This document shows positions 49,655-61,098 of a stretch of 64,000 bases of DNA, one piece after another. Source of the stretch: Cerrena zonata. Taxonomy: Eukaryota; Basidiomycota; Agaricomycetes; Polyporales; Cerrenaceae. The stretch is from contig JASBNA010000010.1 in assembly GCA_038087015.1 (NCBI GenBank), forward strand, positions 682,001 to 746,000. The letters are read 5' to 3'. Both the position numbers and the translations under genes were made by a program. Within the stretch, counting starts at the first letter, position 1. The number at the start of each line of letters is the position of its first letter. Below the pieces are notes generated by a model. That model ran no database searches. It was not told where the DNA came from and was given only the letters and a program-made list of their open reading frames with translations.

Positions 49655-49659
49655 ATATT
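49655..49659. repeat. Target-site duplication, left (ATATT)
   Basis: ATATT immediately before the 5' LTR; identical to 58523-58527 after the 3' LTR. A 5-bp duplication is standard for Ty3/Gypsy integrases. Confidence 0.9.
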
Positions 49660-50248
49660 TGTTACACGCTATGGCTGACCCCAATTCATTTTCCTCGGAC
49701 TATCTACCCTTACTCGCTTATCCCCTTTTCTTTATCACCTTTTAACCCTTCGGACTTGGTCGGACTACCTTTTCTGTCCCTCTCACCCACTTCCACATGG
49801 TCACTTAGCTAGTATACCCTTATCTAGTAGCTACTTTCCCACCATCATCACTTCCCCTCTTCTGCAGCCTTCCATCTTGTTCTTTAACCCTCCACTTCCC
49901 TTCTGTACCGTTGCTTCCTCCGCTTTCTATCGGTTTCTCTCACTTTCTCCCCGAGATCCCCTTTCCCATTGTTCTCATTAGTACTTAAGGACAGCCTGTA
50001 ACTCACCGATTCCCCAGACTGAATCTACGTGGATTTACCCCTGTAACTCCTGACCCTCTGCCTGCTTGACTTGGCCAGCTTCGCCTGTGCCCAAGGCTCG
50101 CTAGAGTCTGCGGACTTGAACCTCAGAGAACCGTACCGAGTGACTAGAGTGAACTCTCGTCTTAGGTTTAGGATAACCCAACCCCTATTCCTACTCGACA
50201 TCTTTGACTTAGACTTTGACTACGTTACATCGGCTCTACCGCGTAACA
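49660..50248 (+). repeat. 5' LTR
   Basis: 589 bp with TGTTAC/GTAACA ends. Compared base by base with the 3' LTR, only one difference was seen: ACTTGGTC here against ACTTCGGTC there. If self-priming holds, R begins at 50016 and U3 spans 49660-50015. Confidence 0.95.
50016..50026 (+). promoter_or_regulatory. Predicted transcript 5' end, self-primer
   Basis: AGACTGAATCT is the exact reverse complement of 50251-50261. In Tf1-type elements the first 11 nt of the mRNA fold back onto the primer-binding site. A weak TA-rich element (ACTTAAGG) lies about 30 bp upstream at 49982-49990. Confidence 0.6.
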
Positions 50249-50250
50249 AA

Positions 50251-50261
50251 AGATTCAGTCT
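50251..50261 (+). other. Primer-binding site, self-priming type
   Basis: AGATTCAGTCT starts two bases after the LTR end. No TGG-initial tRNA-complementary site is present at this position. The 11-nt match to 50016-50026 replaces it. Confidence 0.65.
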
Positions 50262-50292
50262 TCCCATCGTGCGAGGCATACCCTTGCACCGA

Positions 50293-50406
50293 GACCAGAC
50301 CAGGACCCGCCCTAACGTAGTTGGGCACTGATAGACATCGACAGACACAGACCAGACCAGGACCCGCCCTAACGTAGTTGGGCACCAACAGACATCGACA
50401 GACACA
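50293..50406 (+). repeat. 57-bp tandem repeat in retrotransposon leader
   Basis: Two nearly identical 57-bp units (starts 50293 and 50350) containing GACCAGACCAGGACCCGCCC and AACGTAGTTGGGCAC. They lie in the untranslated leader; a packaging or translation role is possible but unproven. Confidence 0.8.
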
Positions 50407-50529
50407 GACAAGACACAGACCAGACCTAGGAAGTCCTGCAGCGGACTACAGACCCCATCACAGACGTATAGGACGACTCTACCAAGCCCTTCTTGTTACA
50501 GAAGGCCCTCTAAAGGAACAGAGGACTAG

Positions 50530-50580
50530 GGATCACGGAATCCACCAGACGACAGGATCACGGAATCCACCAGACGACAG
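50530..50580 (+). repeat. 25-bp tandem repeat in retrotransposon leader
   Basis: Two copies of a 25-bp unit (GGATCACGGAATCCACCAGA and five more bases), starting at 50530 and 50555. Confidence 0.8.
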
Positions 50581-50665
50581 TAAGCCCTTCACAGATTGGA
50601 AGGCACTCACAATAGTTTGTTAGCAAGACAAGCCCTTTGAACGCAAAGGCATCAGACCAGACACC

Positions 50666-52243
50666 GTGGCTTCCTTCAGAGGACTCAACCAAGACGCAAC
50701 TAGGAAACCGTATCGAGCGATCTTACAACAAGACGGCACATACCTCCTCCAAGACAAGAAAGTAGTCTTTCAGAATAACTACTGGAGATACCTTGACCCT
50801 CAAGGGAAAACAGTATCACCCTACGAGTTCAGACCATTGAACGCATTTCGAAACTACGAATTCGAAACTCCACCCGATCGCTCCTACCTTGCGCTTGAAG
50901 ACGGAAGATTAGGACTTCGAACCCTTCGAGACCCTGAGACTGAAAGGGAATCGAAAATCCAGTATCACAAGAACCTAGATCTTTGGATATACCGACGAAC
51001 CAAAGAAACCGATCCCTTGAAGCCACTTGGAGAAGATCAGTGGCAGGGAGACAATTGGAAACCAGGCACTCAGACTTACCGATACGCCAAGCGAGTTTGG
51101 GACCAGAGCGTAGTAGTTGGAACCACTCAGCCACAGGACACAGGACCCATCGCTACTGGGTCAGCGGACAGATCCGCATCGCTTTCCACCCAAAGTACAG
51201 AAAAGGACGACACACCCCCAGACCAGACCCCTACACCATCGAACAGTGGCGAGCAGCCACCTGGACCCCCATCAGAACCATCCGGTAGTAATCCAAATCC
51301 CTCTCCACCGCCTCCACCACCAGACAGACCACCCAGTCCACCACACGGTCCATCCATTAACTCACCAAACATGTCCACCGGAAAAGCAGAAGTTGCTAGA
51401 CCAGAAGCCTACGATGGTAATCCTGATACCGTATCAGTATATACCGTCCATTGCGAGCTAGTCTTTGCCCTCAATGGCTCCATCTACGACACAGACCGAA
51501 AGAAGAAAGCCTACCTCTTATCCTTTTGCACAAAGGATCTCGCCGCAGCATGGGCAGAAGAAGCGATTGGCCAATGGATGAAAGAAACTTCCACCACTCC
51601 TGCCTTCACCGCTCTCACTTGGGACCAAGCCAAACACGAATTCCAGAGCAAGTTCCTCCCCAGCGATCTTGTAGCCGAAGCCCTGATGAAACTCAAAACT
51701 ATCCGCCAAGGAGACGAGTTTGAGAAGTTCCTTGCTGAATTCAAGAAGTATCAGACACGTTCGGGACATACCAGTGTCACACATATTCGGCAGGATTTCC
51801 TCAATGCTCTCAAGCCAGGACTCAAGGCCAAGTTGCTCAGTGTCCGATCTGACAATGTCGACACTATCGCCAAGCTCTACGAAGAAGCTCGGAAATTCGA
51901 GATGCAGTACCTGATTGACACTGCAGGCTCCAGAGGACGAAGCGAAGGAAGTAGTCAGAAAGGACAGACGAATTGGAGACGAAAAGGACAAGGAAGGAAA
52001 GGAGCAAGGGTGAAGGCCCTCTCAGCCGAAGAAATGGATCGACACTTCAAAGAAGAACTTTGCTTCAATTGTCACAAGAAAGGACACAAGTCGGCCGAAT
52101 GCCGACAGAAGAGGATTCGCGAAATCGAAACCGCCATCGAAGACCCCAAGGTCCCATCCGCCGAGGTAAAGAAACTAGTGGCCTCAATTGACCGACACGA
52201 ATTCCTACCAGAAGAAAAAGACCTCCTCGATGAGGGTTTTTAA
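50666..52243 (+). CDS. Gag of the chromovirus
   Basis: Open frame of 525 codons, opening after a stop at 50621. It has no ATG until codon 236 (51371, MSTGKAEVARPEAYDG). The GTG at 50666 sits in ACACCGTGGCTTCC, one base from a strong Kozak ATG, and is taken as the start by position. Domains in order: a novel N-terminal part (residues 1-150), a Pro/Ser/Thr-rich linker (about 165-230), the capsid core from YDGNPDTVSVYTVHCELVFA through FLPSDLVAEALMKLKTIRQG and HIRQDFLNALKPGLKAKLL, a basic stretch, and one CCHC zinc knuckle CFNCHKKGHKSAEC near residue 466. It ends at TAA 52241-52243, directly after the slippery site. The protein forms the virus-like particle and packages RNA. Confidence 0.85.
   Translation: MASFRGLNQDATRKPYRAILQQDGTYLLQDKKVVFQNNYWRYLDPQGKTVSPYEFRPLNAFRNYEFETPPDRSYLALEDGRLGLRTLRDPETERESKIQYHKNLDLWIYRRTKETDPLKPLGEDQWQGDNWKPGTQTYRYAKRVWDQSVVVGTTQPQDTGPIATGSADRSASLSTQSTEKDDTPPDQTPTPSNSGEQPPGPPSEPSGSNPNPSPPPPPPDRPPSPPHGPSINSPNMSTGKAEVARPEAYDGNPDTVSVYTVHCELVFALNGSIYDTDRKKKAYLLSFCTKDLAAAWAEEAIGQWMKETSTTPAFTALTWDQAKHEFQSKFLPSDLVAEALMKLKTIRQGDEFEKFLAEFKKYQTRSGHTSVTHIRQDFLNALKPGLKAKLLSVRSDNVDTIAKLYEEARKFEMQYLIDTAGSRGRSEGSSQKGQTNWRRKGQGRKGARVKALSAEEMDRHFKEELCFNCHKKGHKSAECRQKRIREIETAIEDPKVPSAEVKKLVASIDRHEFLPEEKDLLDEGF
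52234..52240 (+). other. -1 ribosomal frameshift heptamer GGGTTTT
   Basis: In the gag frame the codons are GAG GGT TTT TAA. A slip of one base back re-pairs GGG and TTT and continues TTA ACT GGG in the pol frame, which is open from 52234. XXXYYYZ form, touching the gag stop codon. Confidence 0.75.
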
Positions 52244-55200
52244 CTGGGGGATCAGAGTCAACATATGTATCCCCCACTCTCGCCGTCAGAAGTGTAATAG
52301 TAGCCGATACCCATAACTTATCAATGAACATTGGTATTACTTTACACAATGACGGGAGAAATGTTGAAACCAAAGCCCTTATCGATAGCGGAGCTAGTGG
52401 AATATTCATGGATGAACGATGGGCCACCCAGTGCAAGTTTCGGAAGCAGACCCTCGCAGAACCCCTCAATTGCACCAACGTTGATGGAACCGCCAACAAA
52501 CATGGGTTTATTACTCACTATGTCTGGGCAGACACCACACTAGGAGGACAGAAGGTACCAGTACGATACCTCTTGACGTCGCTTGGAAAAGACAAAGTCA
52601 TCTATGGATTCTCGTGGCTCCAGTACTACAATCCCTCGATCAACTGGCAAGACGGCACCATCACTTTGCCAGCAATCGCCCCTACGAGAATCTCACTCAT
52701 GCGAGTCAACAACTTCACCGAGTACATCCTGCGAAGAACCCAGATTGACCCTATTGCGGTGGCCCCTCAGAAAGAATGCATCGACGAATCCGAACACCTG
52801 AAGGCCTTCATGGACGATGTTAGACCCAAGGAGGTAGAACGAGAACCCGACGAACCTGAAACCCCGAAGCCATTTATCAGGAAGATAATGGATGGCGCAA
52901 TGGAATGGGCCAAGAGCATGCAACAATGGCTGCCCATTCGACGATTCAGCCCGGCCATGGAAATGGCACAGAAAGCCGAAGAAGACAAGAAGAAGGTCCC
53001 ACTTGAAGAACTAGTACCAGAAGAGTACCACGACTACCTGGACACCTTTCAGAAGGGAAAGGCGGAACGATTCCCAGCACCAAGACCCTATGACCACTGC
53101 ATCCAGCTCAAGGATGATTTTGTGCCTCGACGAGCTAAGAACTACAACCTATCGCATGATGAACAGAAACTGCTGGACGAATTCCTCGAGGAGAATCTAC
53201 GCAAAGGATATATTCGAAAATCAAGCAGTCCCCAAGCCAGCGCGTTCTTCTTTGTTGGAAAGAAGGATGGATCAAAACGACCCTGTCAAGATTACCGGTA
53301 CCTCAATGACTCTACGATCAAGAATGCTTACCCTCTCCCGTTAGTCACGGAACTGGTCCAGCAAATGAAAGGAAAGAAGGTTTTTACCAAGCTGGACCTG
53401 CGGAATGGATACAACAATGTGCGGATCAAAGATGGAGATCAATGGAAGGGAGCCTTTACCACCAACCGCGGCCTGTTCGAGCCGACAGTTATGTTCTTTG
53501 GGATGTGTAACTCCCCGGCCACCTTCCAGTCGATGATGAACGACCTGTTCCATGACGAAATTCAAGAAGGATGGTTGGTAATCTACATGGACGACATGCT
53601 CATTGCCTCGGAAGACATGAAGGAACACCGGCGACACGTCAGAAGAATCCTGAAGAAGCTCAAGGAAAACGATCTGTACCTCAAAGGCGAAAAGTGTATC
53701 TTCCACACCACCAAGTTGGAATTCCTTGGCCTTATTCTCGAACCCAATCAGATCTCTATGGACCAAGTCAAAGTGCAAGGAATTCAAGACTGGCCAGAAC
53801 CGAAGACTGTCAAGCAAGTACGATCGTTCTTAGGATTTGGAAACTTCTATCGGAAGTTTATTGCCCATTACTCGGAACTGGCAAGACCCCTCATTGAACT
53901 AACCATGACGGTAGATAAACAGAATTCGACCGAGACGTACAAGGATGGCACCCCGAAGAAGGTTTTCGAATGGACGGACAAGCACCAGAAGGCATTTGAA
54001 GAACTCAAACGCAGATTTATTACGGCCCCTGTTCTCAGAATCCCAGACCCATCGAAACCCTTTGTGCTGGAGACTGACGCATCAAAGGTAGCAACGGGAG
54101 GTTGCCTGAAACAGCAAGATGACCAAGGCAAATGGCACCCTTGTGGATTTATCTCGCAATCGTTCTCCTCGGCTGAACAGAACTACGAGATCTATGACCG
54201 AGAATTGCTAGGAGTTATCCGAGGACTAACAGAATGGAGACACCTGTTGGAAGGACACCCGGAGGTTGTAACATGCCAATGCGACCACAAGAACCTGACG
54301 TACTGGAAGGAAGGACACCGATTAACCCCTCGACAACGGAGATGGCATTTGTGGATGTCGCGGTTTAACATCGCACTCCAACACGTTCCAGGGAAACACC
54401 TTGTTGTGCCAGACACCATGTCCAGAAACCCGATCTATGGCAAAACCACCGACGAAGACGACACCGAGATAATGCTGCCAGACAACCTCTTCCTTCGCGA
54501 ATGCACACTGGAAGATGTCAACGATGAACTCGTGTTACCAGAACACATGTTCCTTCGATATGTCAACACCGATCTCAGGGAACGAATTGCGAATACCACG
54601 GACCTCGATGAAACACTCCAAGACGTACTGAATGCACTAAAAGGGTATGGCACCCTACCGAATTTCTTTGGAAGAAACACCACACTCGACGAATGGGCCT
54701 TGGAAGGCAACATCATGACATACAAAGGACTAGTGTATGTCCCCAAAGATGAAGAACTGCGACGAGATATCATCAAGATGCACCACAACCATCCCACGGC
54801 GGGACACCCAGGTCACTTCAGGACACTAAAATTGGTCGGACGAGATTACTTCTGGCCCGGAATGTCGATGCAGATCAAGAAATACGTTGAAGGATGCGCC
54901 ACCTGCCAACAAAACAAGGTCATTACCCATCCAACAAACCCGCCTTTGATGCCCATCGAATCCAAAGCGGAACGACCATTCGCACAGATATCATTGGATA
55001 TGATCACTCACTTGCCAGAATCGGATGGGCACAACTCAATTCTAACCGTGGTGGACCACGGGCTTACGAAGGGGGTGATCTTTGCCCCTTGCAGTGACAC
55101 ACTGGATGCCGAAGGAGCAGCCCTGCTCTATTTTTCGAATGTTTACAGACGATTTGGACTACCAGACAACGCGATATCAGACAGAGGACCCCAGTTTGCA

Positions 55201-57741
55201 TCAAAGTTTATGAAGGCACTCTGCGAACTCCTAGGAGTCAAGCAATCCCTCAGCACAGCATACCATCCTCAGACCGATGGCCAAACTGAACGAATGAACC
55301 AGGAAGTCGAAACGTATCTTCGTATCTTCACAGCCAACAATCCCAGCGAATGGTCGAAACACCTAATCACAGCCGAGTTCTGCCACAACCAAAGGAACCA
55401 CGAAACCCACAAGCAGTCCCCATTCAAGCTCATGATGGGATGCGATCCCATCGCGATCCCCACTGTGGTACCACGATCCAACGTTCCAGGAGCCGCCAAG
55501 CGATTGCAGGAACTCCAAGCCATGAGAAACGAAGCCTTAGCTGCACATGACCTAGCCAGAAACCGAATGGCTGCCCACAGCAACACCAAGTTCGAGCCAT
55601 TCAAAGAAGGACAAATGGTATGGCTGGAAGGAACGAACCTCAAGACAGGATACGAAAACCGAAAGCTGGGACCCAAGCGAGAAGGACCCTTCAAGATTGA
55701 GAAAGTTGTCTCACCGCTCGCTTATCGACTCCAACTCCCAGACAGATGGAAGATCCACCCAGTATTCCACGCCTCACTCCTTACGCCGTACAAGGAAACC
55801 GAAGAACATGGCCCCAACTTCCCAAGACCCCCACCTGACCTAATCGAAGACGAAGAAGAATACGAAGTAGAAGCCATCGTCGGACATCGCAAGGTTCGCA
55901 ATAGGAATAAGTTCCTGATCAAATGGAAGGGATACCCTTCCTCCGACAACACCTGGATATGGGAATCAGACCTCGAACACAGCAAAGAGTTTGTGGAAGA
56001 ATACAAGCAACGAAGAAGCATCCGAAGCGTAGAAGTCGAACCCATCCCCACTATCATGATCCGACGAATCACCGACAATCACTGTGATGGGGAAACCCCA
56101 GGAAAAAACCCCAAAGCACAGCCTCCGTTCCATGAAGACAAGGTATGCGAAGCTATAGGCAGAACACAGGATCAAGTACACTGCCTCTCCCACGAAAAAG
56201 ATAAAAGGAGCCAAACCGATCCTCTCCGTCATGCCTCCCTTCAATCCCCTTATCCCAACCCTTCTATTGGAATTAGCCCGGGTTCGACTAGTCGTAGTTC
56301 ATCTGAACGAACTCTTGATCCCCCAGCTAGGTCACCCTTTGCTATCCGACACCTCGAGGGCACGATTGGAACAGATAATAGCCCTCTTCACGGAAGTCCG
56401 ACGCGCTGTAAATCTCGAATCAGACCGACTTCAACGAATCGCGTTCGCCAACATCGTCAATCGAACAGGCCCTCGTCCAGACTCGCCAGAAAACGAAGCC
56501 GACCTCGACGCTGCTCTACTGGACCTCTTCACCATCCCAGTGGTGTAAATGCCATCAGCCCGATCATCTCAATCCACGCAGACACCAGAACCCACACAGC
56601 AACGACTGGAATTGATCTCACTCCAACTGAACCTAATTCGCACCTTCATATTCAACGCCGACCATTTCCTTCGAAACCGAGAATCCTCCGAACACACCCG
56701 GGTATTACTCGAATTTGTTATAGCCACCCTTATCGAAAAAGCTGGTGTTCTAGCAAGACAACAGCTCGAGGAACTTCTCAACCTCGAAGGGGACGAAGAC
56801 GCCGAAGGAGATACCGACTCCGAGTACAACAGCAGCGAAGGCGCGGAAGCCGACGACGAACAAACACTAGTTTAAGGAATCATGGACCCAGCATCGTCTC
56901 CGTCTACAAGAACCCAAGAACCCAATTCTCCAGGCCAGCCAGCCGTAACCGTTTTCGACGAATTAACCGATATTCTCCACCGAGTCACAGATGTCTTGCG
57001 ACCCCGCACCAGTCAAATGGCATCGGATGTGGCTCGAAACGAGCTAACAGTTGTGTTAGTATTGTTGCGAGTAGCTCGACAACATTTGGGGATAGCTGGA
57101 AGGGTCGGACAGCAACATGCCCTATCCAATGCTCGCCCAAGAACTCGATCTCACCCAGGACCACTCACCACCGCAACCGGAGATATCTCTCAGCAGCAAT
57201 TGACCACCGCCCTCATTCAAGCCAGAGACCAGGAGATGAGAATATCCGTCTCACCTGTTCCCACATCCCGAAGCTCTTCACACTCTGGGTCAACGCGACC
57301 AGAACCCTGTCAGTCCAGGAACCCTCCTTCACCGAACCCTATCCGCTCCCACCAGTATCTTCGAGAACGAGGTCGACCCCGATCGACATTCCCATATGCC
57401 GACCCAACAGATGGTTCCAACCCACTATACTCGGTAAATGCCGCTACACCGAACCCGCCCAATGCGTGGGATCGTGGACCACCAAGGGTTTAAATGAGGA
57501 CGACTCTGCGACGAGTCATCCTCCAGACAACACCACTTCGGGGCCTTGCACCCTACTCAATGTTCCAAGTCTACTACTCGTTCTTCATCTTCTTGCTGTT
57601 CTTGCACGCTGCCACCATCACTGGGTGTGCCTTCATCATTCGCCACGTCACCAACGCTTTGACCCCCCGACTCCTCCATCGACGAGACAACTCCTCCACC
57701 GACCAATCCAAATACAAGTACGGTTGGGGGGACCCCGATAA
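52234..57741 (+). CDS. Pol: protease, RT, RNase H, integrase, chromodomain, long tail
   Basis: Frame open from 52234; first Met at 52324 (residue 1 here). Protease LIDSGASG (20-26). Reverse transcriptase with LDLRNGYNNVRI and YMDDM (421-425). RNase H with LETDASKVATGG (about 583). Integrase zinc finger H-H-C-C (HHNHPTAGH near 820, CATCQQNK near 859) and D-D-35-E core (LDM near 892, SDRGPQF Asp 953, TERMNQ Glu 989). Chromodomain EVEAIVGHRKVRNRNKFLIKWKGY...DNTWIWE (about 1180-1225). The frame has no stop after the chromodomain until 57739-57741. The last 540 residues are rich in Arg, Ser, Pro and His and overlap the small ORFs in another frame; whether they are made is uncertain. Expression as Gag-Pol by -1 frameshift. 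Confidence 0.9.
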   Translation, partial: GFLTGGSESTYVSPTLAVRSVIVADTHNLSMNIGITLHNDGRNVETKALIDSGASGIFMDERWATQCKFRKQTLAEPLNCTNVDGTANKHGFITHYVWADTTLGGQKVPVRYLLTSLGKDKVIYGFSWLQYYNPSINWQDGTITLPAIAPTRISLMRVNNFTEYILRRTQIDPIAVAPQKECIDESEHLKAFMDDVRPKEVEREPDEPETPKPFIRKIMDGAMEWAKSMQQWLPIRRFSPAMEMAQKAEEDKKKVPLEELVPEEYHDYLDTFQKGKAERFPAPRPYDHCIQLKDDFVPRRAKNYNLSHDEQKLLDEFLEENLRKGYIRKSSSPQASAFFFVGKKDGSKRPCQDYRYLNDSTIKNAYPLPLVTELVQQMKGKKVFTKLDLRNGYNNVRIKDGDQWKGAFTTNRGLFEPTVMFFGMCNSPATFQSMMNDLFHDEIQEGWLVIYMDDMLIASEDMKEHRRHVRRILKKLKENDLYLKGEKCIFHTTKLEFLGLILEPNQISMDQVKVQGIQDWPEPKTVKQVRSFLGFGNFYRKFIAHYSELARPLIELTMTVDKQNSTETYKDGTPKKVFEWTDKHQKAFEELKRRFITAPVLRIPDPSKPFVLETDASKVATGGCLKQQDDQGKWHPCGFISQSFSSAEQNYEIYDRELLGVIRGLTEWRHLLEGHPEVVTCQCDHKNLTYWKEGHRLTPRQRRWHLWMSRFNIALQHVPGKHLVVPDTMSRNPIYGKTTDEDDTEIMLPDNLFLRECTLEDVNDELVLPEHMFLRYVNTDLRERIANTTDLDETLQDVLNALKGYGTLPNFFGRNTTLDEWALEGNIMTYKGLVYVPKDEELRRDIIKMHHNHPTAGHPGHFRTLKLVGRDYFWPGMSMQIKKYVEGCATCQQNKVITHPTNPPLMPIESKAERPFAQISLDMITHLPESDGHNSILTVVDHGLTKGVIFAPCSDTLDAEGAALLYFSNVYRRFGLPDNAISDRGPQFASKFMKALCELLGVKQSLSTAYHPQTDGQTERMNQEVETYLRIFTANNPSEWSKHLITAEFCHNQRNHETHKQSPFKLMMGCDPIAIPTVVPRSNVPGAAKRLQELQAMRNEALAAHDLARNRMAAHSNTKFEPFKEGQMVWLEGTNLKTGYENRKLGPKREGPFKIEKVVSPLAYRLQLPDRWKIHPVFHASLLTPYKETEEHGPNFPRPPPDLIEDEEEYEVEAIVGHRKVRNRNKFLIKWKGYPSSDNTWIWESDLEHSKEFVEEYKQRRSIRSVEVEPIPTIMIRRITDNHCDGETPGKNPKAQPPFHEDKVCEAIGRTQDQVHCLSHEKDKRSQTDPLRHASLQSPYPNPSIGISPGSTSRSSSERTLDPPARSPFAIRHLEGTIGTDNSPLHGSPTRCKSRIRPTSTNRVRQHRQSNRPSSRLARKRSRPRRCSTGPLHHPSGVNAISPIISIHADTRTHTATTGIDLTPTEPNSHLHIQRRPFPSKPRILRTHPGITRICYSHPYRKSWCSSKTTARGTSQPRRGRRRRRRYRLRVQQQRRRGSRRRTNTSLRNHGPSIVSVYKNPRTQFSRPASRNRFRRINRYSPPSHRCLATPHQSNGIGCGSKRANSCVSIVASSSTTFGDSWKGRTATCPIQCSPKNSISPRTTHHRNRRYLSAAIDHRPHSSQRPGDENIRLTCSHIPKLFTLWVNATRTLSVQEPSFTEPYPLPPVSSRTRSTPIDIPICRPNRWFQPTILGKCRYTEPAQCVGSWTTKGLNEDDSATSHPPDNTTSGPCTLLNVPSLLLVLHLLAVLARCHHHWVCLHHSPRHQRFDPPTPPSTRQLLHRPIQIQVRLGGPR
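56231..56548 (+). CDS. Retrotransposon 3' ORF A, unknown
   Basis: 105 residues, ATG at 56231, in the +1 frame relative to pol. Mainly helical and amphipathic: PTLLLELARVRLVVVHLNEL, ARLEQIIALFTEVRRAVNLE, then an acidic end with LDAALLDLFTIPVV. The frame is open from 56159. The stop TAA is followed directly by the ATG of ORF B. Codon choice (CGA Arg, GAA Glu, C-ending codons) resembles the verified part of pol, which supports this frame as coding. No family recognised. A protein-interaction or structural role is a guess. Confidence 0.65.
   Translation: MPPFNPLIPTLLLELARVRLVVVHLNELLIPQLGHPLLSDTSRARLEQIIALFTEVRRAVNLESDRLQRIAFANIVNRTGPRPDSPENEADLDAALLDLFTIPVV
56549..56875 (+). CDS. Retrotransposon 3' ORF B, unknown
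   Basis: 108 residues, starting at the ATG that touches the stop of ORF A (TAAATG), same frame. Ser/Thr/Pro-rich N-terminus, then helices LELISLQLNLIRTFIFNADH and LEFVIATLIEKAGVLARQQL, and a strongly acidic tail (EGDEDAEGDTDSEYNSSEG). The helical pair resembles that of ORF A in spacing, so the two may be ancient duplicates. Expression would need termination-reinitiation, readthrough or a spliced message. No family recognised. Confidence 0.65.
   Translation: MPSARSSQSTQTPEPTQQRLELISLQLNLIRTFIFNADHFLRNRESSEHTRVLLEFVIATLIEKAGVLARQQLEELLNLEGDEDAEGDTDSEYNSSEGAEADDEQTLV
56882..57493 (+). CDS. Retrotransposon 3' ORF C, unknown
   Basis: 203 residues, ATG six bases after the stop of ORF B and still in the same frame. 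N-terminal part has a helical region similar in style to A and B (TVFDELTDILHRVTDVL, then ELTVVLVLLRVARQHLGIAG). The second half is a low-complexity, Pro/Ser/Arg-rich stretch (SQSRNPPSPNP-like) ending in DRGPPRV. The stop TAA again touches the next ATG. No family recognised. Confidence 0.65.
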   Translation: MDPASSPSTRTQEPNSPGQPAVTVFDELTDILHRVTDVLRPRTSQMASDVARNELTVVLVLLRVARQHLGIAGRVGQQHALSNARPRTRSHPGPLTTATGDISQQQLTTALIQARDQEMRISVSPVPTSRSSSHSGSTRPEPCQSRNPPSPNPIRSHQYLRERGRPRSTFPYADPTDGSNPLYSVNAATPNPPNAWDRGPPRV

Positions 57742-57769
57742 TCAAGACGCCAATGATGGATGGAACTAA
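57494..57769 (+). CDS. Retrotransposon 3' ORF D, predicted membrane protein
   Basis: 91 residues, ATG directly after the stop of ORF C (TAAATG). One or two close hydrophobic segments form a membrane anchor (MFQVYYSFFIFLLFLHAATI continuing TGCAFII), flanked by Arg-rich sequence before and RLLHRRDN after, and a hydrophilic tail. Placed where some LTR elements carry an envelope-like gene, but it is far too short to be a classical envelope protein. Its stop overlaps the start of ORF E. Confidence 0.65.
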   Translation: MRTTLRRVILQTTPLRGLAPYSMFQVYYSFFIFLLFLHAATITGCAFIIRHVTNALTPRLLHRRDNSSTDQSKYKYGWGDPDNQDANDGWN

Positions 57770-57890
57770 CATCCTCATCTACATTGCCGCATCGCTGGTG
57801 TCTGTCGGACACCTTGTAATGTTTTATTTTGTTTTCCGCCGAAGCATGCAGGTCCTCAACGACCTCGTTGGAACCCGAGACCCACCTTAA
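57753..57890 (+). CDS. Retrotransposon 3' ORF E, 45-residue membrane protein
   Basis: Begins with ATGATG at 57753, overlapping the end of ORF D by 17 bp in the next frame, and ends TAA at 57888-57890. Composition: short polar start, one membrane helix (ILIYIAASLVSVGHLVMFYF), then FRRSMQVLNDLVGTRDPP. This is a typical small single-pass protein, with positive residues just after the helix. Too short for most ORF filters. Coding status is inferred from its position in the ORF string and its clean helix. Confidence 0.55.
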   Translation: MMDGTNILIYIAASLVSVGHLVMFYFVFRRSMQVLNDLVGTRDPP

Positions 57891-57897
57891 GCCCAAA

Positions 57898-57917
57898 GGT
57901 GTTTAGGGACAAACACC
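57898..57917 (+). terminator. Hairpin before the 3' LTR
   Basis: GGTGTTT-AGGGAC-AAACACC: perfect 7-bp stem with 6-nt loop, just after the last ORF and just before the purine tract. Could be an RNA element; true termination is expected in the 3' LTR. Confidence 0.5.
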
Positions 57918-57919
57918 AT

Positions 57920-57932
57920 AGGAGGGAGCTAA
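57920..57932 (+). other. Polypurine tract
   Basis: AGGAGGGAGCTAA directly abuts the 3' LTR, the place where plus-strand DNA synthesis is primed. It is interrupted by CT, which is tolerated in some elements. Confidence 0.7.
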
Positions 57933-58522
57933 TGTTACACGCTATGGCTGACCCCAATTCATTTTCCTCGGACTATCTACCCTTACTCGCTTATCCCCTT
58001 TTCTTTATCACCTTTTAACCCTTCGGACTTCGGTCGGACTACCTTTTCTGTCCCTCTCACCCACTTCCACATGGTCACTTAGCTAGTATACCCTTATCTA
58101 GTAGCTACTTTCCCACCATCATCACTTCCCCTCTTCTGCAGCCTTCCATCTTGTTCTTTAACCCTCCACTTCCCTTCTGTACCGTTGCTTCCTCCGCTTT
58201 CTATCGGTTTCTCTCACTTTCTCCCCGAGATCCCCTTTCCCATTGTTCTCATTAGTACTTAAGGACAGCCTGTAACTCACCGATTCCCCAGACTGAATCT
58301 ACGTGGATTTACCCCTGTAACTCCTGACCCTCTGCCTGCTTGACTTGGCCAGCTTCGCCTGTGCCCAAGGCTCGCTAGAGTCTGCGGACTTGAACCTCAG
58401 AGAACCGTACCGAGTGACTAGAGTGAACTCTCGTCTTAGGTTTAGGATAACCCAACCCCTATTCCTACTCGACATCTTTGACTTAGACTTTGACTACGTT
58501 ACATCGGCTCTACCGCGTAACA
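57933..58522 (+). repeat. 3' LTR
   Basis: 590 bp, TGTTAC to GTAACA, matching 49660-50248 except for one extra base. Confidence 0.95.
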
Positions 58523-58527
58523 ATATT
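58523..58527. repeat. Target-site duplication, right (ATATT)
   Basis: Matches 49655-49659. The interrupted gene reading resumes here. Confidence 0.9.
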
Positions 58528-60988: not shown

Positions 60989-61098
60989 GTTTTGATTCCG
61001 AATTGCCGGGTCTTGATTCCGAAGTAATGGTTCTTGGTTCCGAAACACTGGTTCTTGGTTCCGAAACACTGGTTCTTGGTTCCGAAACACTGGTTCTT
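60989..61098. repeat. 21-bp tandem repeats (about five units)
   Basis: Three identical 21-bp units at 61029-61091 (GGTTCTTGGTTCCGAAACAC + T), preceded by two degenerate units. The minus-strand translation is a repeated Cys-Phe-Gly-Thr-Lys-Asn peptide, probably fortuitous. Confidence 0.85.

Follow-up and report, generated by a model that had tools for sequence, protein, structure and literature searches.

A young Cerrena zonata chromovirus carries a chain of small, mostly constrained open reading frames that is probably an exchangeable accessory cassette

Why should a retrotransposon carry a row of five small open reading frames (ORFs) set almost stop to start? The question arises from a stretch of 64,000 nucleotides of the basidiomycete Cerrena zonata (GenBank assembly GCA_038087015.1, contig JASBNA010000010.1, positions 682,001 to 746,000 of the forward strand), hereafter the window. 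It holds a full-length long terminal repeat (LTR) retrotransposon, and a preliminary description, made from the sequence alone, had pointed to ORFs A to E in its 3' part. Our analysis suggests that A to E probably form a polycistronic set of accessory genes, an exchangeable cassette that a young Ty3/Gypsy chromovirus carries in a slot between the chromodomain and the 3' LTR. Two other stop-to-start cassettes sit on closely similar pol backbones in the same genome. The five ORFs are listed here with the ratio of nonsynonymous to synonymous substitution rates (dN/dS) against a second copy.

56231..56548, forward strand: ORF A, 105 codons; predicted two-helix hairpin; dN/dS 0.055
56549..56875, forward strand: ORF B, 108 codons; predicted hairpin with an acidic tail; dN/dS 0.037
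56882..57493, forward strand: ORF C, 203 codons; residues 23-145 constrained
57494..57769, forward strand: ORF D, 91 codons; one hydrophobic stretch; residues 23-91 constrained
57753..57890, forward strand: ORF E, 45 codons; one hydrophobic stretch; overlaps the end of D

A to D lie in one frame and are joined by TAA ATG (A|B), TAA GGAATC ATG (B|C) and TAA ATG (C|D); E starts 14 nt before the stop codon of D and 11 nt after the stop of the pol frame. ORFs, sizes, shared frame, junctions and the D/E overlap are all as first described. We assessed the chain against 20,000 Markov-1 sequences modelled on 56231-57769. None contained three or more ORFs of at least 90 codons with gaps of at most 6 nt, compared with the four observed; when the limit was lowered to 40 codons, three ORFs appeared in 3 of the 20,000 and four in none.

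A search of the genome (55.5 Mb, 171 contigs) found one other copy of the module, on contig C37 (L002). It is 94% identical over 1843 bases, and no insertion or deletion separates it from the window across 54595-58031. Protein searches with A and with D returned the same two loci as the DNA search, and a search with B returned both module copies, two weak matches in the S1 module described below, and one match elsewhere at E 0.11. Comparison of the two copies gives dN/dS values of 0.055 (A), 0.037 (B), 0.044 (C23-145) and 0.036 (D23-91), with 0.035 for the integrase-chromodomain region; the segment limits inside C and D were chosen after inspection of the positions of the changes. The ratio is 0.24 over the whole of C (1.1 for C1-22, 0.33 for C146-203) and 0.17 over the whole of D (0.69 for D1-22). 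When the same substitutions are placed at random, 8.9 amino-acid changes are expected in A, 6.0 in B, 11.0 in C23-145 and 5.7 in D23-91; we observed 2, 1, 2 and 1, respectively (each P < 0.001). With dN/dS at 0.04-0.06, A, B and the cores of C and D code for protein under purifying selection.

The junctions were compared in the same way. A|B and D|E of the C37 copy are letter-identical to the window, and B|C retains the TAA, the ATG and a gap of six bases between them, while the gap and the flank show changes. At C|D the TAA is kept and the first ATG of D is ATA; because of this change, D may start at its second ATG, at 57560. The conservation of stops and adjacent starts that the preliminary description had proposed as its check is thus seen at three junctions and fails at the start of D. 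Neither the uninterrupted ORF nor the random stops that it would have taken as signs of a decayed gene appeared for A to D, but the C37 copy does carry a TGA in A and ATA at the start of D. In window equivalents, the stops of the C37 copy fall at 55474 in pol, at 56803, and once in ORF A. The stop at 56803 is a CGA-to-TGA change and those in pol and A replace arginine codons, so that all match what is expected from CpG loss.

Next to these two copies stand relatives of the same element with other genes in the same place. A genome search with the integrase-chromodomain region gave 88 listed matches, 30 of them listed as loci, and a part of these 30 loci was analysed. Among the analysed loci are five further close copies (L007-L011, re-fetched as L037-L041), with 93-98% pol protein identity and one piece, L034, at 88%. 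All five sister copies lose their DNA homology to the window at 56064-56117 and regain it only at 57899-57912, beside the LTR. By blastn the window module has no match to either of the sister modules, on elements whose pol is 91-94% identical. The sister modules are the following.

Module S1 (L037, L038): zinc-knuckle ORF1, then Gag2
Module S2 (L039, L040, L041): ORF1, ORF2, ORF3

The stop-start junctions of the window, which the preliminary description had singled out, recur in both. In S1, a TAG is followed by 5 nt and the ATG of Gag2, with a change of frame. In S2, ORF1 and ORF2 are joined by TGA, 6 nt and ATG (ORF2 read in L039 and L041), and in L041 ORF2 and ORF3 (493 codons) overlap by ATGA into another frame. 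L040 lacks parts of ORF1 and ORF2, and L039 has an insertion in ORF3. The dN/dS values are 0.035 for S2 ORF1, 0.11 for the first 320 codons of S2 ORF3 and 0.12 for S1 Gag2. A decayed relative of S2 ORF3, 44-60% identical and with many stops, lies at G000:C9:886377-888889. In a distant group (L012 and its relatives, about 55% pol identity) the place is taken by a single 259-codon ORF, which in L012 begins 52 bases past the pol TAG. The first ORF is in the +1 frame relative to pol in all four groups (for the window and L012, as judged from coordinates).

S1 also has a link to the window module. Its zinc-knuckle ORF has a second part homologous to B (phmmer 3e-9 among 14 proteins; 6e-5 and 2e-4 in the genome search; profile comparison probability 93%). 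The Gag2 of S1 is a Gag-type protein (Retrotrans_gag 4.2e-8). It has 31-35% identity to one set of Gags in the genome, and the Gags of the backbone group to which it belongs are 27-28% identical to it. A genome search with Gag2 listed 24 matches, and from their positions most of the Gag2-like Gags appear to adjoin, on the upstream side, integrases of the L012 group. The second Gag gene (L037:2011-2823, and L038) thus stands at the 3' end of a chromovirus; ordinary 5' Gag matches lie upstream (contigs C68 and C4).

We measured the identity of the backbones in 500-column stretches from reverse transcriptase (RT) to chromodomain. Copies are about 91-98% identical regardless of module (L040, 87-94%), and where one piece of the C1 copy overlaps for a short distance the figure is 95-100%. 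The window is 93.0-96.3% identical to C37 and 92.7-96.2% to the S1 copies, and along most of the backbone two copies that share a module are not more alike than two that do not. In the last stretch, beside the module, the window and C37 are the closest pair (96.3%). The U3 regions, for which figures are rough because the aligned LTR slices differ in length, fall into types: the window, C37 and L040 share one type (84-87%), though L040 carries S2; L039 and L041 are 92% identical to each other and 42-50% to that type; and the S1 copies, of a third type, are 85% identical to each other, with 60-66% identity to the window and to C37. The best reading of L040 is that of a recombinant in which an S2 module is joined to a window-type (M0) U3. 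Cassettes may have been exchanged by template switching between co-packaged RNAs.

How might such a chain be translated? Apart from the starts of A, B and C themselves, neither copy has an ATG in any frame from the start of A to that of C; the next ATG after that of A is that of B, and the next after that of B is that of C. S1 ORF1 (L037) and S2 ORF1 (L039, L041) are likewise free of ATGs up to the following ORF, the one exception being an early in-frame Met in S2. Pooled, the four first-position ORFs have 0 out-of-frame ATGs compared with 3.7-4.4 expected (P 0.003), although the pooling was made after looking and singly none is significant. In view of this order of ATGs, A to C could be reached by scanning ribosomes (leaky scanning) together with termination-coupled reinitiation at the abutting junctions. 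Leaky scanning alone, on a spliced or internally started RNA whose first three ATGs would be those of A, B and C, and with the close packing of stops and starts no more than a leftover from the origin of the chain, would account for these observations, but C contains 10 further ATGs before the start of D, and S2 ORF2 has four out-of-frame and one in-frame ATG before that of ORF3. We regard it as rather unlikely that scanning is the whole answer, because with these ATGs D, E and ORF3 need coupling or another route. A stop abuts, closely precedes or overlaps the next start at A|B, B|C, C|D and D|E and at the S1 and S2 junctions, except that the C|D start is lost in C37 and the ORF2/ORF3 stop is shifted in L039; reinitiation would suit C|D, D|E and the frame-changing sister junctions better.

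The preliminary description had offered stop readthrough as the other route, in which A-B-C-D would be one protein with leaky stops. A to D do share a frame with only 0-6 nt between them, as do S2 ORF1 and ORF2. This would require passage of three TAA stops, however, each junction has its own ATG, and D/E, S1 ORF1/Gag2 and, in L041, S2 ORF2/ORF3 change frame, the two sister ATGs standing 5 nt past the stop or overlapping it. We consider a readthrough protein very improbable for A to D, and as a general mechanism readthrough fails at the two frame-changing sister junctions. The carrier RNA would, as the simplest guess, be a spliced or internally started 3' message, since more than 100 ATGs and no nearby pol stop lie upstream of A. 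Upstream stretches read by eye showed nothing convincing as a shared splice acceptor before ORF1.

A further feature of the cassette was overlooked in the preliminary description. The pol frame of the window is open across all of A to C and most of D, to 57741. Over A to D it has 0 stops in 498 codons, compared with 14.5 expected when synonymous codons are shuffled within A-D. The test covered the window, L037, L039 and L041, and gave 0 in 301 codons for L041 (10.2 expected), 1 in 312 for L039 (10.3) and 0 in 117 for L037 (4.7). In the same relative frame, gag has 19 stops (27.4 expected), pol 37 (51.9) and the L012 ORF 8 (15.1), so the shortage in these control genes is milder than in A-D. 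The pol tail past the chromodomain is without amino-acid constraint: read in the pol frame, none of the 14 changes over A and 1 of the 9 over B leave the amino acid as it was, and C has a dN/dS of 1.3. The C37 copy has one pol-frame stop within A-D, at 56803. Among the sister copies, L037 and L041 have a tail without stops along the chain, and TGA codons occur earlier in pol in L037, L040 and L041. One of two copies of the window module, one of two of S1 and one of three of S2 have an open tail, a single copy per kind, beyond what codon usage predicts and not in all copies.

What the proteins may be was approached by structure prediction and family searches. AlphaFold2 predicts two-helix hairpins for A (single sequence; helices 7-34 and 40-79; predicted template modelling score (pTM) 0.60) and for B (four sequences; helices 15-43 and 48-84; pTM 0.56), with ten-residue blocks of the helices at a predicted local distance difference test score (pLDDT) of 73-97. 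No Pfam family lies above cut-off for A to E. A fold search with B against the PDB gave 537 matches at E up to 10 and none at 0.001, and one with A against viral models gave 422 and none at 0.001; for a predicted two-helix hairpin such searches appear uninformative. Common descent of A, B and C found no support at the sequence level: when nine hairpin segments were compared by profile in all 36 pairings, with a reversed control for each, A-C scored 1.4%, the next-best true pair 4.5% and the best reversed control 6.2%, and the only pair supported was B with the S1 hairpin. Of the shared helical style noted earlier for A, B and C, the predicted hairpins of A and B stand, and homology among the three is not supported. 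Searches of viral contigs with integrase and B, and of a phage collection, found no relative.

The cassette products may most plausibly be accessory or structural proteins of the particle, a tentative view suggested by S1 because it encodes a zinc knuckle joined to a B-type hairpin and a second Gag. These two products may point to particle assembly or to competition between element families. The preliminary description had instead placed D and E at the position of an env gene. Their membrane-type character is supported by the hydrophobic stretches (KD19 2.29 for D and 2.00 for E; A, 1.67), and a module in which D and E are parts of an envelope with A to C as partners would suit its place between pol and the 3' LTR. 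However, no envelope, fusion or glycoprotein family passes the Pfam cut-off in the module ORFs, D (91 aa) and E (45 aa), with one stretch each, leave little room for an ectodomain beside a transmembrane anchor, and the S1 and S2 ORFs tested reach at most 1.26. We consider an Env-like module improbable, and the lack of such stretches in S1/S2 and of any Env family makes it unlikely as the general meaning of the slot. It is more improbable still, in fact hardly credible, that the coding frame is a long pol tail and A to D are decayed or chance by-products. The pol frame, open for 1805 codons with fewer stops than codon usage predicts, speaks for this, but the changes are mostly silent in the A-D frame and mostly replacing in the pol frame, and the four-ORF chain is absent from the 20,000 simulations.

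Several observations weigh against an exchangeable accessory cassette and keep us from stating it more firmly. The window module is known from two copies only, and that on C37 is decayed (TGA in pol, TGA in A, ATG to ATA in D). E shows no clear constraint (4 substitutions, 2 amino-acid changes, P 0.46), nor do C1-22 and D1-22. S1 ORF1 is weakly constrained (dN/dS 0.54) and shortened in L038; S2 ORF2 has a dN/dS of 0.38, and its ATGA is not kept in L039, where the ORF2/ORF3 overlap is longer. The integrase tree groups the window with C37, if weakly (77/70), and under approximately unbiased (AU) tests (p 0.11-0.42) a single origin for each module is neither rejected nor shown; the backbone trees are almost without resolution. 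Four ATGs lie in the 185 nt upstream of A with no pol stop near A, which leaves the start of A without explanation. Finally, the pol tail meets a stop 55 codons past the chromodomain in L038 (before ORF1), 73 in L039 and 113 in L040.

A broader version of the cassette reading can be entertained tentatively, as a possibility we would not bet on. The chromovirus backbone would be a platform on which polycistronic accessory sets are swapped by recombination in reverse transcription; working copies would keep pol open, the last gene would be made as a Pol fusion (in S1 and S2 it is in the pol frame) or alone by reinitiation, and the cassettes would help element families to compete with one another or to act against the host. 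Its chances are reduced because the pol tail is open in only one of two, one of two and one of three copies of the three kinds.

The carrier itself has the following parts.

49660-58522, forward strand: full-length chromovirus, recognised by its LTR pair, target duplication and pol domains
49660..50249, forward strand: 5' LTR, 590 bp, TGTTAC...GTAACA; flanked by ATATT at 49655-49659
50666..52243, forward strand: gag (Retrotrans_gag 9.5e-9); open frame, GTG at 50666 in ACCGTGG
52234..52240, forward strand: GGGTTTT heptamer, in a phase that fits -1 frameshifting from gag to pol; adjoins the gag stop
52324..57741, forward strand: pol reading frame, 1805 codons; protease, RT, RNase H, integrase and chromodomain, the last to about 56013, then a basic tail
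57933..58522, forward strand: 3' LTR, followed by ATATT at 58523-58527; a purine-rich stretch lies directly upstream

The LTRs run from TG to CA and differ by 0 mismatches and 1 gap; this near-identity, together with the 5-bp target duplication ATATT at both ends, indicates that the element inserted recently. Its pol matches RVT_1 (6e-31), RT_RNaseH (1.5e-31), Integrase_H2C2 (5.3e-21) and Chromo (1.1e-14), with rve (1.7e-6) under the curated cut-off and a weak protease match (gag-asp_proteas 4e-4), also under cut-off. Since RT, RNase H, the integrase zinc-binding domain and a chromodomain C-terminal to integrase are all found, the element is a chromovirus, as had been proposed. The first ATG 3' of the 5' LTR is at 51371 (50250-51370 is ATG-free). 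The GTG at 50666 is kept in all three copies read there (L070, L071, L072), and 15 of 20 substitutions between the N-terminal part of gag and these copies fall at third positions; this GTG is a possible non-AUG start of a longer Gag. The GGGTTTT heptamer may serve in -1 slippage into pol. In the leader, 50292-50405 is a 57-bp tandem duplication with two units 95% identical, and outside the element 60992-61096 is a 21-bp tandem repeat.

The usual picture of LTR retrotransposons is one of gag-pol machines in which an extra ORF is an occasional passenger. In this genome, three gene chains of mostly constrained ORFs occupy one slot on backbones that differ by about 2-13% from RT to chromodomain. 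Elements of this kind would, rather like viruses, carry accessory genes and trade them, and a eukaryotic message may hold a row of genes set stop to start. The stop-free yet unconstrained pol tail poses a question about overlapping frames. To our knowledge, and without a comparison against the literature or protein databases, such stop-start cassettes have not been described in LTR elements.

Comparison with known systems sets the cassettes apart in different ways. In passages of a survey of fungal Gypsy elements, two ORFs are given as usual and a chromodomain as present in most, and numerous extra domains are mentioned only for complex transposons that arose through several insertions (Muszewska et al. 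2011, PMC3248453). The present elements share with fungal chromoviruses the LTRs, gag and the order of protease, RT, RNase H, integrase and chromodomain, and differ from them in the three kinds of multi-ORF cassettes past the chromodomain. Plant LTR retrotransposons can carry additional ORFs between pol and the 3' LTR; unlike these, the ORFs here are chained and mostly constrained, with different modules on one backbone. Complex retroviruses have an accessory-gene region of small ORFs near the 3' end that overlap other frames. The resemblance lies in just this, but here there is no Env, the ORFs form a stop-to-start chain, and close copies have different cassettes. Coupled termination-reinitiation operates in the fungal RNA viruses HvV190S (AUGA) and hypovirus (UAAUG) and in the LINE SART1, where, as in our elements, the stop touches or overlaps the start (L041 has ATGA, the window TAAATG); here, however, several junctions stand in a row, with gaps of up to 6 nt, in an LTR element. 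The yeast element Ty1 makes p22/p18, a Gag-derived restriction factor. The S1 cassette likewise encodes a second Gag-type product, but as a separate, diverged gene rather than a truncated form. With this second Gag, competition between element families becomes directly testable.

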